Shown: positions 6,646 to 59,080 of the stretch, piece after piece
How positions within the stretch are numbered: the first letter of the stretch is position 1
Layout of the letters: each line of letters starts with the position of its first letter
Source: Microvirga lenta
Lineage (GTDB): Bacteria; Pseudomonadota; Alphaproteobacteria; Rhizobiales; Beijerinckiaceae
Reading direction: 5' to 3'
DNA length: 64,000 nucleotides
NCBI RefSeq assembly: GCF_020532555.1
Contig: NZ_JAJBBR010000005.1
Span: 62,001 to 126,000 of the forward strand
Notes under the pieces: model-generated
Seen by the model: the letters and a program-made list of their open reading frames with translations, nothing else
Told to the model about the DNA's origin: nothing
Database searches by the model: none
Made by a program: the position numbers and the translations under genes

Positions 6646-7524
6646 ATGCCGTCAGCGCATTTGGCCGACCGGGGCGTGGTAAGAGTTTCCGGCGCGGACG
6701 CCAAGACTTTTCTGGACGGGCTCGTCACCTGCGACCTCGACCGGGTCTCGCCCGAGGCCGCGCGGCTCGGCGCCCTGCTCACGCCGCAGGGCAAGATCCT
6801 GTTCGATTTCATCGTGTTCCAGGCTCCCGACGCCATCGAGGGCGGCTATTACCTCGACGTGCTGAAGGTCCATGCGCCCGACCTCGCCAAGCGCCTCGGC
6901 TTCTACAAGCTCAGGGCGAAGGTGACGATCCAGGATCTCTCCGGGAGCCTGGCCGTTGTGGCGGGCTGGGACGCCCCGAGGCCCGAGGACGAGGCCGGCC
7001 TCGTGGCCGAGGACCCGCGCCTGCCGGCGCTGGGCTGGCGCGCCATCGTGGCGGCGGAGGATGCGGCGGAGTTCGCGCAGGATCCGGCCGAGCGCTACCA
7101 CGCCCACCGCATCGCCCTGGGGGTGCCCGAGGGCGGCAGGGACTTCCTGTTCGGGGACGCCTTCCCCCACGAGGCGCTGATGGACCAGCTCCACGGGGTC
7201 GATTTCGACAAGGGCTGCTATGTGGGCCAGGAGGTGGTCTCCCGCATGCAGCACCGGGGCACCGCGCGCACCCGGATCGTGCCCGCGATCTACGAGGGCG
7301 GCTTCGCGGCGGATCTCGGGGTCGAGGTCACGGCGGGCGAAAAGAGCCTGGGCAAGACCGGCACCGGCGCCGAAGGGCGCGGCCTGCTCATGATCCGCCT
7401 CGACAGGGCGGCGGACGCGCTTGCGGCCGGGGAGACCATCCGCGCCGGCGGGATTCCGGTGGAACTCCGGAAGCCGGAATGGGCCGGTTTTGCCTTTCCC
7501 GGAGAGACGGCGCCCCGAAGCTGA
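6646..7524 (+). CDS. ygfZ: YgfZ/GcvT-like folate-binding protein
   Basis: 292 residues with the GcvT-like barrel and the YgfZ signature 'KGCYVGQEVVSRMQHRG' at about residues 188-204. The Cys in KGCYxGQE is the conserved functional residue. YgfZ binds tetrahydrofolate and supports assembly or repair of certain iron-sulfur proteins; it is cytoplasmic. I choose the ATG at 6646 (MPSAHLADRG) with GGAG about nine bases upstream; an upstream ATG at 6586 would overlap the pyrC promoter region. It is divergent from dihydroorotase. Confidence 0.88.
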   Translation: MPSAHLADRGVVRVSGADAKTFLDGLVTCDLDRVSPEAARLGALLTPQGKILFDFIVFQAPDAIEGGYYLDVLKVHAPDLAKRLGFYKLRAKVTIQDLSGSLAVVAGWDAPRPEDEAGLVAEDPRLPALGWRAIVAAEDAAEFAQDPAERYHAHRIALGVPEGGRDFLFGDAFPHEALMDQLHGVDFDKGCYVGQEVVSRMQHRGTARTRIVPAIYEGGFAADLGVEVTAGEKSLGKTGTGAEGRGLLMIRLDRAADALAAGETIRAGGIPVELRKPEWAGFAFPGETAPRS

Positions 7525-55155: not shown

Positions 55156-56820
55156 TTACATGTTGATGTAGTTCGGTCCGCCGCCGCCTTCGGGGGTGAC
55201 CCAGTTGATGTTCTGGTTCGGGTCCTTGATGTCGCACGTCTTGCAGTGGACGCAGTTCTGCGCGTTGATCTGGAAGCGCGCTCCCCCCTCGCCCTCGACC
55301 CATTCGTAGACCCCGGCCGGGCAGTAGCGCTGCGAGGGGCCGCCATAGACGTCGTGCTCGGACGCCTTCTGCAGGCCCATGTCCCTGACCTTGAGATGGA
55401 CCGGCTGGTCCTCCTCGTGATTGGTGTTCGACAGGAACACCGAGGAGAGCTTGTCGAAGGTCAGCACCCCGTCGGGCTTCTCGTACCTGATCGGCTTCAC
55501 CTGATCGAGCGGCAGCAGGCATTCGTGATCGGGCTTGCCGTGGCTCATGGTGCCGAAGGGCGACCAGCCGAACAGCTCCGTCAGCCACATGTCGAGGCCG
55601 CCCAGCGCCACGCCCGCTGTCGTGCCGTATTTCGACCAGAGCGGCTTCACGTTGCGCACGCGCTTGAGGTCGTAGCCGATGGGCGAGGAGCGCCAGGCCT
55701 CCTCGTAGGACGCGACCTCGTCGTGGGAGCGGCCCGCCTGCAGCGCCTCGAGGAGGTGATCGGCGCAGAGCATGCCGGACAGGATCGCGTTGTGGCTGCC
55801 CTTGATGCGCGGCACGTTCACGAAACCAGCGGAATCGCCCACGAGGCAGCCGCCCGGGAAGGACAGGCGCGGCACCGATTGCCAGCCGCCCTCCATGATG
55901 GCGCGGGCGCCGTAGCCGATGCGCTTGGCGCCCTCGAACACGTCGCGCACCATCGGATGGGTCTTGAAGCGCTGGAACTCGTCGAAGGGCGAGAGGGTCG
56001 GGTTCTTGTAGTTGAGGTGCACCACGAAGCCGACGGAGACCAGATTGTCGTCGAAGTGGTAGAGCCAGGAGCCGCCGCCCGCGTTGTTCGGCAGGGGCCA
56101 GCCCATGGAATGGCGCACGAGGCCGGGCTGGAACTTGTCGGGCTGAACCTGCCAGAGCTCCTTGATGCCGATACCGTATTTCTGGTGGTCGCGGCCCTGG
56201 TTGAGGCCGTAGCGCTCGACCATCTGCTTCGTCAGGTTGCCGCGCGCGCCTTCCGCGAAGACCGTGTACCTGGCGCGAAGCTCCATGCCGCGGGTGAAGT
56301 TGGCGTTGGGCTCGCCGTTCCGGCCGATGCCCATGTCGCCGGTGGCGATGCCCACCACCTTGCCGTCCTCCACCAGCACCTCGGCGGCCGGGAAGCCCGG
56401 ATAGATCTCGACGCCCAGCTCCTCCGCCTTGCGGCCGAGATAGCGGGCCACGTTGCCCAGGGAGCCGACGAAGTTGCCGTGGTTGTTCATGAGCTTGGGC
56501 ATGAACACGTTGGGCAGCCTCACGCCGCCCGCATGGCCCAGATACATGAACTCGTCCGCCGTCACTGCGGTCTTGAGGGGACGGTCCGGATCGCTGCGCC
56601 ATTCCGGCAGGAGGCTGTCGAGGCCGATGGGATCGACCACGGCGCCGGAGAGGATGTGGGCGCCGACCTCCGAGCCCTTCTCCACCACCACGACGGAGAT
56701 GTCCGCTCCCTTCTCGGCCGCCTGCTGCTTGAGCCGGATGGCGGTGCTGAGGCCCGCAGGACCGGCTCCGACGACGACGACGTCGAAATCCATCGATTCA
56801 CGGGCGGGCAGATCGGCCAT
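55156..56820 (-). CDS. etfD: Electron transfer flavoprotein-ubiquinone oxidoreductase
   Basis: 554 residues. FAD-binding 'DVVVVGAGPAGLSTAIRLKQ', ubiquinone-site region 'GSHNAILSGMLCADHLLEAL', and the C-terminal 4Fe-4S ligands: Cys in 'RYCPAGVYEW', then 'INAQNCVHCKTCDIKDPNQN'. It takes electrons from ETF (fed by acyl-CoA dehydrogenases such as the one at 24-25 kb) into the quinone pool at the inner membrane. Divergent from the HigB-like gene. Confidence 0.95.
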   Translation of the reverse strand: MADLPARESMDFDVVVVGAGPAGLSTAIRLKQQAAEKGADISVVVVEKGSEVGAHILSGAVVDPIGLDSLLPEWRSDPDRPLKTAVTADEFMYLGHAGGVRLPNVFMPKLMNNHGNFVGSLGNVARYLGRKAEELGVEIYPGFPAAEVLVEDGKVVGIATGDMGIGRNGEPNANFTRGMELRARYTVFAEGARGNLTKQMVERYGLNQGRDHQKYGIGIKELWQVQPDKFQPGLVRHSMGWPLPNNAGGGSWLYHFDDNLVSVGFVVHLNYKNPTLSPFDEFQRFKTHPMVRDVFEGAKRIGYGARAIMEGGWQSVPRLSFPGGCLVGDSAGFVNVPRIKGSHNAILSGMLCADHLLEALQAGRSHDEVASYEEAWRSSPIGYDLKRVRNVKPLWSKYGTTAGVALGGLDMWLTELFGWSPFGTMSHGKPDHECLLPLDQVKPIRYEKPDGVLTFDKLSSVFLSNTNHEEDQPVHLKVRDMGLQKASEHDVYGGPSQRYCPAGVYEWVEGEGGARFQINAQNCVHCKTCDIKDPNQNINWVTPEGGGGPNYINM

Positions 56821-56939: not shown

Positions 56940-56959
56940 GCCGAAAGCTCTCTTTCGGC
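56940..56959. promoter_or_regulatory. Inverted repeat 1 upstream of the toxin-antitoxin-derived module
   Basis: GCCGAAAG, CTCT, CTTTCGGC: perfect 8-bp arms with a 4-base spacer. Candidate operator or leader hairpin. Confidence 0.55.
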
Positions 56960-56972
56960 ATAACATTATGCC
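56957..56972. promoter_or_regulatory. Inverted repeat 2, overlapping repeat 1
   Basis: GGCATAA, CA, TTATGCC: 7-bp perfect arms; shares GGC with repeat 1. It contains AT-rich steps that could serve as a -10 region. Confidence 0.55.
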
Positions 56973-56985
56973 GAACTTTCCACTT

Positions 56986-57003
56986 GTTCCCAAATTTGGG
57001 AAC
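56986..57003. promoter_or_regulatory. 18-bp perfect palindrome, candidate operator
   Basis: GTTCCCAAATTTGGGAAC reads the same on both strands. It ends four bases before the ATG at 57008 and overlaps the ribosome-binding region. Such a site is what an HTH antitoxin dimer would be expected to bind for autoregulation. Confidence 0.7.
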
Positions 57004-57007
57004 GTCT

Positions 57008-57358
57008 ATGGTGCTCCCCATGCTTGTGATCGGCGTTCCGAGACTTGAAGCCTATTGGACCCTTCATCCCGAGGCGGAGCCCTCCCTGAGGGCTCTTCAT
57101 GCTCTGCTGTCCGCGGCCTCGTGGGGCAGCGCGGCCGAGTTGGTGCTGCATTGGGCGGCCATAGCCCGTGAGGACAAGGGATGCATCAGGCTCGCCCTCG
57201 TCGACGACGGGTGCGAGGTCCTGGTTCAGATCAACTTCGCCCTCGGAATCGCCCAGATCCAAGCCGTGAATGCCCTTGCGCCCCATGGAGCGACGAGCGA
57301 TGACCGTCAGCGTAAAACCGATCAGATCCCCGGCGGATTACGAGCAAGCCCTGCGTGA
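57008..57358 (+). CDS. HigB-like toxin homologue, catalytic region degenerate
   Basis: 116 residues. The N-terminal half matches RelE-superfamily HigB proteins: 'PRLEAYWTLHPEAEPSLRAL', 'LLSAASWGSAAELVLHWAAI'. In the family this is followed by a strand pair with GNKYRL and a closing THAEYDKI, which carry the basic and aromatic residues of the RNase site. Here the equivalents read 'LVDDGCEVLVQINFALGIAQ' and 'APHGATSDD', so those residues are missing. The C-terminal 20 residues are disordered-looking and overlap the next gene by 59 bases. Probably no longer an mRNA interferase; it may keep only antitoxin binding (inference). The ATG at 57008 is preceded by GGGA; 57020 is an alternative. Confidence 0.65.
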   Translation: MVLPMLVIGVPRLEAYWTLHPEAEPSLRALHALLSAASWGSAAELVLHWAAIAREDKGCIRLALVDDGCEVLVQINFALGIAQIQAVNALAPHGATSDDRQRKTDQIPGGLRASPA

Positions 57359-58433
57359 GATCGAAACCCTCATGGCTGCCCAACCGGGCTCCCACGAGGA
57401 GGACCGACTGGAAGTCCTGGCCGCCCTCGTGGCCGCCTATGAGGCGAAGCAGGGTGTGGCGGCCTCGGCCGATCCGATCAGCGTGCTGCAGTTCGCCCTT
57501 CGCGCGCAGGGCAAGGGGCAGAAGGATGTTGCCGCCACCCTCGGGTCGCGCTCCCGCGCTTCGGAGGTCCTGAGCCGGAAGCGGCATCTGTCGGCCGACA
57601 TGGTCGAGAAGCTGTCCCGGGCCTTCGCCATTCCCACCCATCTTCTGGCCGTACCCTATGAGGTTGCCACGGGGCGCCTGCGCCGGATCATCGGCGGCGG
57701 CTCGGTCGCGACGGTCGTCGTTCTGGGCCTCATGGGCGCCGGAACCGGCCTTCTCTTCTGGCACTACGGCCAGGACCTGCCGGAGGTCGCATCGCTCGCC
57801 ACCTATCAACCGCCCAGCCTGGTGAGGAGAGATGACAACGGGCGCCTCCTGGAGCACCGCAGCTTCGTCCCCCTGACGGAGATCCCGCCTCATGTGGTGA
57901 AAGCCTTTCTGGCGGCCGAGGATCAGGACTTCTATGACCATGGCGGTGTGAGCACGCGGGCGATCCTGCGCGCCTCCCTGCAGAACATCGCCAGTCTCGG
58001 GATCAATCCCGCAGGTGGCAGCACGATCAGTCAGCAGGTCGCCAAGAACGTGCTGCTGCCGGGCCAGCCGCGCTCCCTCGAACGCAAGATCAAGGAAGTC
58101 ATCCTGGCCCGCAGGATCGAGGCGAACCTGACCAAGGACCGGATCCTCGAGATCTATCTCAATCAGATCTATTTCGGCGGCAGCGCCTATGGCATCGCCG
58201 CGGCATCGCAGGCCTATTTCGGCAAGGCACCGCACGACCTCACCCTTGCCGAAGCTGCCTACCTGGCTGCCCTGCCGAAGGCTCCCAACCATTACCGCCT
58301 CGACATGGCCGAGAACCGGGATCGAGCGAAGGACCGGCGGGATTGGGTTCTGGCCCGCATGGCGGACGATGGCCTGATCACGCCCACGGCCGCACATTTG
58401 GCTGCAGGCGAACCCCTGGTGATCTCGAACTGA
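57300..58433 (+). CDS. HigA-type HTH antitoxin domain fused to a GT51 peptidoglycan glycosyltransferase
   Basis: 377 residues. Residues 1-115 are a HigA antitoxin: 'IRSPADYEQALREIETLMAA', 'EEDRLEVLAALVAAYEAKQG', then the HTH 'GKGQKDVAATLGSRSRASEV', 'LSRKRHLSADMVEKLSRAFA'. Residues ~130-153 are one membrane helix (GGGSVATVVVLGLMGAGTGL). Residues ~165-335 are a complete GT51 domain with all five motifs: 'AAEDQDFYDHGG' (E207), 'GGSTISQQVAKN', 'ERKIKEVILARRIE', 'KDRILEIYLNQIYFGG' and 'AAYLAALPKAPNHY'. No transpeptidase domain follows. Predicted topology: DNA-binding part in the cytoplasm, lipid II polymerase in the periplasm. ATG 57300 has GGAG about ten bases upstream. It overlaps and is coupled to the HigB-like gene. 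The reading frame is uninterrupted across the junction, so this is not an obvious frameshift artefact. Confidence 0.9.
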   Translation: MTVSVKPIRSPADYEQALREIETLMAAQPGSHEEDRLEVLAALVAAYEAKQGVAASADPISVLQFALRAQGKGQKDVAATLGSRSRASEVLSRKRHLSADMVEKLSRAFAIPTHLLAVPYEVATGRLRRIIGGGSVATVVVLGLMGAGTGLLFWHYGQDLPEVASLATYQPPSLVRRDDNGRLLEHRSFVPLTEIPPHVVKAFLAAEDQDFYDHGGVSTRAILRASLQNIASLGINPAGGSTISQQVAKNVLLPGQPRSLERKIKEVILARRIEANLTKDRILEIYLNQIYFGGSAYGIAAASQAYFGKAPHDLTLAEAAYLAALPKAPNHYRLDMAENRDRAKDRRDWVLARMADDGLITPTAAHLAAGEPLVISN

Positions 58434-58513: not shown

Positions 58514-59080
58514 ATGCAGGATCATCCGTCCGATCGAGAGGCGTCCTATACGCTGTTCGACACGCCCATCGGGGTCTGTGGGCTCGCCTGGAACGAGCGC
58601 GGAATCGCGGGCTTCCAGCTCCCCGAGGAGGACGTGTCCGGGATGCGCAGCCGCCTCGCCAAGCGCTTCCCCGGGATCCGCGAAACGCCGCCGCCACCGG
58701 ACATCCGGGCCGTCATCGACGACGTGGCGGCTCTGCTCGGGGGCGAGGCGCGCGATCTGTCCGCCGTGCCGCTGGACATGGACGGCGTGCCGGAATTCGA
58801 CCGTCGCATTTACGAGATCGCCCGCAGCATTCCGCCGGGCCGCGTGCTGACCTATGGCGAGATTGCCTCCCGGCTCCGCATCGACAACGCGCGAGCGATC
58901 GGCCAGGCGCTGGGGCGCAATCCTTTCACCGTCATCGTGCCTTGCCACCGGGTCGTGGCGGCAGGCGGCAAGCTTGGGGGGTTCTCGGCCAATGGGGGTG
59001 CCACGACCAAGCGCCGCCTTCTCGCCATCGAAGGCGCCAGACGGGACGAGAGTCCGACCCTTTTCGACCTGATTTCGTGA
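58514..59080 (+). CDS. ogt: Methylated-DNA-protein cysteine methyltransferase
   Basis: 188 residues. The acceptor site 'FTVIVPCHRVVAAGGKLGGF' (PCHRV) with the preceding 'IPPGRVLTYGEIASRLRIDN' DNA-binding helix-turn-helix and the Asn hinge 'GRNPF' is complete. It removes alkyl groups from O6 of guanine in a single-turnover reaction. No AraC-type Ada regulatory domain, so the Ogt type. Its N-terminus MQDHPSDREA is nearly the same as that of the UDG two genes along the strand, and both share a similar promoter. Confidence 0.93.
   Translation: MQDHPSDREASYTLFDTPIGVCGLAWNERGIAGFQLPEEDVSGMRSRLAKRFPGIRETPPPPDIRAVIDDVAALLGGEARDLSAVPLDMDGVPEFDRRIYEIARSIPPGRVLTYGEIASRLRIDNARAIGQALGRNPFTVIVPCHRVVAAGGKLGGFSANGGATTKRRLLAIEGARRDESPTLFDLIS

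Follow-up and report, generated by a model that had tools for sequence, protein, structure and literature searches.

HigB-like proteins paired with HigA-enzyme fusions have been described before: according to the sections of Vassallo et al. (2022; PMC9519451) that deal with it, PD-lambda-2 comprises a HigB-like protein, a HigA-peptidase fusion that is toxic on its own, an effect relieved by the HigB-like protein, and a third protein. Autoregulation is also described in parts of PMC2814082, and for E. coli K-12 HigA and HigBA the relevant passages of PMC11980606 describe autoregulation via promoter palindromes. The section of the latter article on ToxM-ToxR (Gerdes 2025, PMC11980606) presents a type II toxin-antitoxin (TA) system with one member anchored in the membrane, its N-terminus cytoplasmic and its C-terminal domain periplasmic; this member is a BECR-fold toxin. 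The operon that we describe here lies in a 64,000-nucleotide stretch of Microvirga lenta DNA (the window) and resembles PD-lambda-2 in that a HigB-like gene comes first and is followed by a HigA helix-turn-helix (HTH)-enzyme fusion, with matches to the same PADLOC HigA and HigB families; the fused enzyme of PD-lambda-2 is, however, an ImmA/IrrE-type peptidase, whereas here a transmembrane (TM) helix and a GT51 peptidoglycan glycosyltransferase domain take its place. With type II HigBA of E. coli K-12 (PF09907) it shares the gene order, the HigA domain, the HigB fold, and a palindromic operator before higB, but its HigA bears a membrane helix and an enzyme, and its HigB-like protein lacks conserved C-terminal residues. 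In contrast to ToxM, the membrane-anchored member is the antitoxin/repressor, and its outer domain is a recognized enzyme. Like class A penicillin-binding proteins (PBPs) and MtgA, the fusion has a membrane helix followed by a GT51 domain with the full motif set, and it differs from them in having no transpeptidase domain, in its HigA cytoplasmic tail, and in forming its own branch beside PBP1a-like sequences. Our searches of an open-access library showed no description of a HigA-TM-GT51 protein. An earlier sequence-only reading of this DNA had held that no such system was described, which needs narrowing, PD-lambda-2 and ToxM being, as far as the sections cited above go, published relatives in design; the pairing of a HigB-like protein with a HigA-effector fusion is already known, and TM-GT51 as the effector is what appears to be new.

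The frame that encodes the fusion is open on the + strand over 57270/57300-58433, and ATG 57300 is the conserved start (MTVSVKPIRS...), so that the HigA-TM-GT51 protein occupies 57300..58433 and has 377 aa. Its HigA domain (residues 1 to 120; 57300..57659, + strand) was recognized by HigA chains, by PADLOC, and by its identity to non-fusion matches: chains 5ycl/5ifg matched the N-terminal 158 aa with an E value of 3e-4 (five-row profile) and the full-length fusion with an E value of 4e-6 (ten-row profile), and the domain is 38 to 48% identical to the 29 best non-fusion matches of a family scan. The HTH within it (57501..57638, + strand) contains the segment LGSRSRASE, invariant in all ten fusions compared; the Pfam model PF01381 (HTH_3) scored 22.2 bits on the 387-aa ORF (E = 1.5e-4, cutoff 23) and 24.3 bits on the N-terminal part alone (E = 3.2e-5). 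Hydropathy gave one clear peak, at residues 135 to 153 (57702..57758, + strand). The stretch of 15 residues that precedes this helix holds three K/R and the 15 that follow hold none, and the ten fusions are alike in this respect (three or four before, at most one after). These charges suggest a cytoplasmic HigA half and an outside GT51 half, in support of the membrane-tethered, N-in topology proposed by the sequence-only reading, and, together with the order of HTH, membrane helix, and outer part, they would fit a membrane-tethered one-component regulator.

The GT51 domain (residues 185 to 354; 57852..58361, + strand) matches PF00912 (Transgly) with an E value of 1.6e-61 in Pfam and carries the motifs EDQDFYDH (with E207, codon 57918..57920, + strand), GGSTISQQVAKN, RKIKE (an RKxxE motif with E266, codon 58095..58097, + strand), and ILEIYLNQIYFGG, as well as the LAALPKAPN block. 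E207 and E266, which we take from the GT51 literature to be the first and second Glu of the catalytic pair, are invariant in 10/10 fusions, the motifs are intact throughout the alignment, and the fusion is predicted to be an active polymerase. The best fold match of this part is Aquifex PBP1a; a structure prediction of the full chain was middling (mean pLDDT of 69, with HTH blocks at 54 to 67). A transpeptidase domain is absent from the fusion, as the PBP1a-family match covers positions 1 to 184 of 535 and the 387-aa ORF ends four residues later. Pfam, HigA profiles, hydropathy, and motifs thus bear out the initial observation of a HigA HTH, a membrane helix, and a GT51 domain with all motifs in a single frame.

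The fusion is present end to end in at least 10 genomes from four families, with 59 to 87% identity to the window protein over the whole length, which rules out an assembly or frame artifact; at least nine genomes besides that of the window keep it with intact HTH and GT51 motifs, so that the outcome which would have refuted the sequence-only reading, absence of the fusion from every other genome, did not occur. Within Microvirga it was found in 5 of 48 genomes, that of the window included, the other four carriers being Microvirga sp. 3-52, M. lupini Lut6, M. rosea, and M. puerhi. A scan of the order detected the full-length fusion in at least 6 of 397 genomes, again counting our own, when the best four candidates per genome were scored, and the five new ones came from three other families. 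The class scan (best five candidates per genome) detected it in at least 1 of 385, namely our own, and scans of other families found it in 2/4, at least 1/103 (best 19 candidates per genome), and 2/12 genomes, with no additional carriers. In our own family, 49 of 298 genomes matched a HigA-TM query at an E value of 0.01 or better, and at least four fusions, all from our own genus, were found among the best 13 candidates per genome. At 24 of the 26 non-fusion HigA loci fetched from the family, the protein ends no more than 33 residues past the match, at one (L097) it runs off the locus, and at the remaining one (L101) it is a HigA-peptidase, described below. At L089 (1186-1878, genome G162), HigB and HigA form one continuous frame, apparently a natural HigB-HigA fusion. 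A match on a Methylorubrum AM1 megaplasmid (residues 79 to 375) was rejected, the frame read there being a PBP without a HigA domain. None of the 806 matching plasmid records covered 80% of the query, and the seven pattern matches obtained with one query among viral contigs included no relative.

In a tree of HigA domains that took in 11 of the 26 stand-alone loci, the HigA parts of the fusions form one clade against the stand-alone HigAs (99/96), and in a quick tree of GT51 domains a branch with an SH-aLRT of 94, just below star level, separates the ten fusions from 58 PBP sequences and places them beside a PBP1a-like group and outside the Microvirga PBPs. Both trees fit a single origin of the fusion. 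Estimates of dN/dS by the Nei-Gojobori method for ten Microvirga pairs, rough because several dS values exceed 1, were 0.07 to 0.135 for the HTH, 0.07 to 0.11 for GT51, and 0.09 to 0.17 for the whole HigA part, and reached about 0.46 to 0.57 in the membrane helix and linker; by these values, HTH and GT51 are under strong purifying selection.

In the window, the operon lies between genes for an ETF-ubiquinone oxidoreductase (ETF-QO; 55156..56820, − strand, PF05187) and an ogt-like O6-methylguanine-DNA methyltransferase (58514..59080, + strand, PF01035), both of which we regard as flanks outside the system. The same position between ETF-QO and ogt is seen in four of the five Microvirga carriers, and ogt adjoins the operon in all five, an ogt-like ORF being next after the fusion in G066, G027, G031, and G001, the four carriers other than the window genome. 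In M. lupini the contig that bears the operon is 5.7 kb long; the ogt-like ORF lies downstream of the operon there, and upstream of it is a transposase-like ORF, presumably of the IS110 type (L007 23-859). Among 27 ETF-QO loci of noncarriers, the 1.5-kb flank held an ogt motif in 22, a UDG motif without ogt in 4, and neither in 1. The operon is missing from 43 of the 48 genus genomes and is therefore dispensable. An ETF-QO tree of 26 rows (G066 twice), in which the window and G066 represent the carriers, separates these two on starred branches although the operon has the same site in both, which suggests either repeated loss or a transfer in which the flanks recombined. Flanks vary between families, the neighbors tested in the other families being an alanyl-tRNA synthetase, CobU with a histidine kinase, FtsJ, an MFS protein, and a 3-dmu-9_3-mt domain protein, and operator, HigB-like gene, and fusion remain together. 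In the window and at L125, PADLOC gave no match for the next co-directional gene after the fusion; at L126 to L129, the gene predicted next is convergent.

The HigB-like ORF (57020..57358, + strand; 112 aa) shares 59 nt with the fusion, the two being read in different frames, and a HigB-derived ORF is directly upstream of the fusion in 10/10 carriers. Its homology to HigB emerged from profile-profile comparison, fold, and PADLOC, and the HigB fold is kept, with residues 1 to 86 confidently modeled. Pfam, PF09907 (HigB) included, gave no match in the five Microvirga proteins; of four tested from outside the genus, two matched PF09907 below the cutoff (best E = 0.014) and two did not match, and matches to PDB sequences were confined to designed proteins and chaperonins. 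Eight C-terminal positions, including G84, H86, Y89, and D90, that at least eight of the nine stand-alone HigBs compared have in common, in an alignment that is rough at this end, are kept in none of the ten HigB-like proteins, and R66 of HigB is kept in three. The dN/dS of the ORF is 0.18 to 0.48, and for the tail that overlaps the fusion start, most Microvirga pairs, on very few sites, give no sign of constraint in the ORF's own frame. The HigB-like protein thus appears to be disarmed yet under selection, which would be best explained if it is a partner of the HigA half. Without the conserved C-terminal residues in its neighbor, an antitoxin function of the fusion is doubtful.

A 20-bp putative operator, TGTTCCCAAATTTGGGAACG (56985..57004), ends 15 bp before the HigB-like start and contains the 18-bp perfect palindrome GTTCCCAAATTTGGGAAC (56986-57003) already noticed in the sequence-only reading. 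In the 100 bp before the HigB-like ATG, the pattern TGTTCC-N8-GGAACA was found with zero to two mismatches in all ten fusion operons, 10 to 16 bp before the ATG, and no more than 6 of 300 shuffles were equally good. Fourteen of the 26 stand-alone HigBA loci were oriented and read. In 9 of them the half-sites recur with N7 between them and zero to two mismatches (equaled in no more than 10 of 300 shuffles), 3 have a different 19-bp palindrome that was no better than shuffles by half-site score, and 2 have none. As the half-sites are common to both kinds of operon, they look inherited from HigBA, and the difference in span (20 bp in 10/10 fusions versus 19 bp in the nine stand-alone operons) suggests an altered dimer geometry. 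At one non-Microvirga locus (L125, G411), tandem operators of the 20-bp type, TGCTCCCCGAAATGGGAACA and TGTTCCCAAAATTGGGAACA, precede the HigB-like gene (7145-7164 and 7178-7197). A second inverted repeat, TTCGGCATAACATTATGCCGAA, is present at 56954-56975, between ETF-QO and the operator; its counterpart in G066 (L042) is TTCCGCATAAGGTTATGCGGAA, with both arms altered jointly, and it was not seen in the stretch shown of G031 or G001. No sigma-70-like site turned up on the + strand at the operon in the promoter scan, and a laxer script found no consistent promoter.

Our preferred reading, to which we would give nearly even chances, is that a higBA operon has here been domesticated: it would encode a membrane-tethered lipid II polymerase under autogenous control, with a dead toxin as the partner of its HigA half. 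In a single event, a HigA antitoxin/repressor would have become joined to a GT51 lipid II polymerase through a membrane helix, and the cytoplasmic HigA half would still bind the palindromic operator before the operon and repress it. Through the polymerase's own DNA-binding half, the cell would then gauge how much of the membrane polymerase it has, and perhaps also its working state, and if the fusion represses its own operon, the level of the membrane polymerase would feed back on transcription. The HigB-like protein would have lost its ribonuclease toxicity and would now serve the HigA half as its dedicated partner, with co-repressor or release factor as the likeliest roles. Such a protein would amount to an autogenous trigger enzyme anchored in the membrane. 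Trigger enzymes such as PutA, BirA, and NadR likewise combine an enzyme and a transcriptional repressor in one chain; to our knowledge, none of them is a wall polymerase that spans the membrane, and none descends from a TA pair. We speculate that engagement of lipid II could alter DNA binding by the HigA half. A more elaborate version, which we consider possible but doubtful, is a TA pair turned membrane switch, with a peptidoglycan polymerase for a repressor: a single chain would couple the engagement of lipid II on the outer side to operator binding in the cytoplasm, and the dead toxin would inhibit the polymerase, the roles being inverted in the manner of PD-lambda-2. Both transcription and glycan synthesis would then be set by the state of the wall or by phage attack.

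An inverted TA or phage defense system in the style of PD-lambda-2, in which the HigB-like protein restrains a HigA-GT51 effector, appears unlikely to us. Phage or wall damage would free the fusion, and unpaired GT51 activity would spend lipid II or make uncrosslinked glycan, so that growth stops. There is a precedent, as the HigA-enzyme fusion is the toxic half of PD-lambda-2 in the experiments described in the relevant sections of PMC9519451, and the patchy distribution of our operon would suit a defense role. PADLOC models PD-Lambda-2_B and PD-Lambda-2_A match the fusion (E = 3.5e-30; positions 3 to 117 of 402, the HigA part only) and the HigB-like ORF (E = 3.1e-7), respectively, but stand-alone HigAs match the former at least about equally and stand-alone HigBs match the latter better, so that these matches indicate kinship with HigBA only. 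A full-length PD-Lambda-2_B does occur in the same family, in G159 (L101 619-1848, − strand): it is a HigA-peptidase with Peptidase_M78, matching positions 1 to 397 of 402 (E = 1.9e-138), which indicates that such HigAs do become fused to effectors here. Membership of our operon in PD-lambda-2 was rejected, since the fused peptidase is absent, the PADLOC matches are common to stand-alone HigBA, and this true PD-lambda-2_B differs. The third gene that defense by PD-lambda-2 needs, PD-lambda-2_C, kin to a P4 phage antitoxin, was not seen beside the operon in the window or at L125 to L129. PADLOC on the five neighbors scanned gave one match, of the FtsJ-type methyltransferase at L128 to mad2 (E = 6.5e-14, against 2.9e-56 for FtsJ), and the surroundings of the operon, next to ogt in the five Microvirga carriers, form no recognizable defense island.

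Less likely still is a sensor of lipid II or antibiotics that governs wall genes elsewhere, with GT51 as receptor and the HTH as a regulator of a wider regulon, although the presence of an HTH and a receptor-like domain in one chain invites this view. Our own genome has a single perfect copy of the 14-bp core, at the operon; with up to two mismatches allowed there are 10 core sites versus 2 in the control, and the 18-bp pattern with up to one mismatch occurs 19 times versus 9. Counts of the 18-bp near-matches in three further carriers also exceed control (G066, 16 versus 11; G027, 23 versus 18; G534, 5 versus 4), which leaves room for further targets, but they fall below control in 6 of the 10 carriers. 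Among the listed near-match places that were inspected in five Microvirga genomes, no convincing second operator was found, and the HTH therefore most likely represses its own operon. The three one-mismatch core sites (L130 to L132) lie within an ORF, within a weak ORF, and before a small predicted lipoprotein gene, the last of them about 63 bp before that gene (L132 about 3711; G000:C27:32210) and either a second target or chance. A second perfect 18-bp site in our own genome has a GC-rich center and is inside a 1161-aa ORF. At the rho start codon, a one-mismatch operator-like palindrome is present in all five Microvirga carriers (G000:C14:77611-77628; G066, G027, G031, G001), and conservation of the rho start may account for its recurrence. 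The control of other wall genes suggested by the sequence-only reading found no support, as the only perfect core is at the operon itself and the inspected near-matches lie in or next to genes with no recognizable wall role.

It is improbable that the HTH serves as a protein adaptor, with the HigA half binding the cytoskeleton or another protein and thereby positioning a monofunctional glycosyltransferase. The model for such a role is RodZ, which combines HTH_25 with the RodZ C-terminal domain and whose HTH binds MreB. RodZ has the same order of HTH, one membrane helix, and periplasmic part and acts in wall growth, but our fusion has a different HTH family and a different outer domain: the HTH_3 and HigA profiles match, and only HTH_3 and Transgly, with no RodZ-type HTH, were found in Pfam at E values up to 1. 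An operator conserved in 10/10 operons and common to stand-alone HigBA also predicts DNA binding. Highly improbable, too, is an ordinary HigBA pair, a toxic HigB-like protein neutralized by a membrane-bound HigA; HigB fold, gene order, and operator are all HigBA-like, but none of the eight conserved HigB positions is kept in the ten proteins and matches to PF09907 are absent or below cutoff. A decaying or accidental fusion without function is hardly credible, patchy as the operon is, since at least 10 genomes retain the fusion, enzyme and HTH alike have a dN/dS of about 0.1, and nothing disabling was seen in the alignment of the ten fusions, where a TGA inside the G375 match proved to be the normal stop after EPL.

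On the preferred reading of a domesticated, self-regulating operon, a HigA half that binds the operator while GT51 sits in the membrane would let a wall polymerase read its own level without a separate sensor. With a one-base shift in the operator and a stripped HigB, the passage from TA pair to regulator becomes testable. The operon also adds a membrane polymerase to the HigB-like/HigA-enzyme design, in which PD-lambda-2 has a peptidase, and the finding that both have become fused to HigA suggests that HigA-effector fusions may be a general theme.
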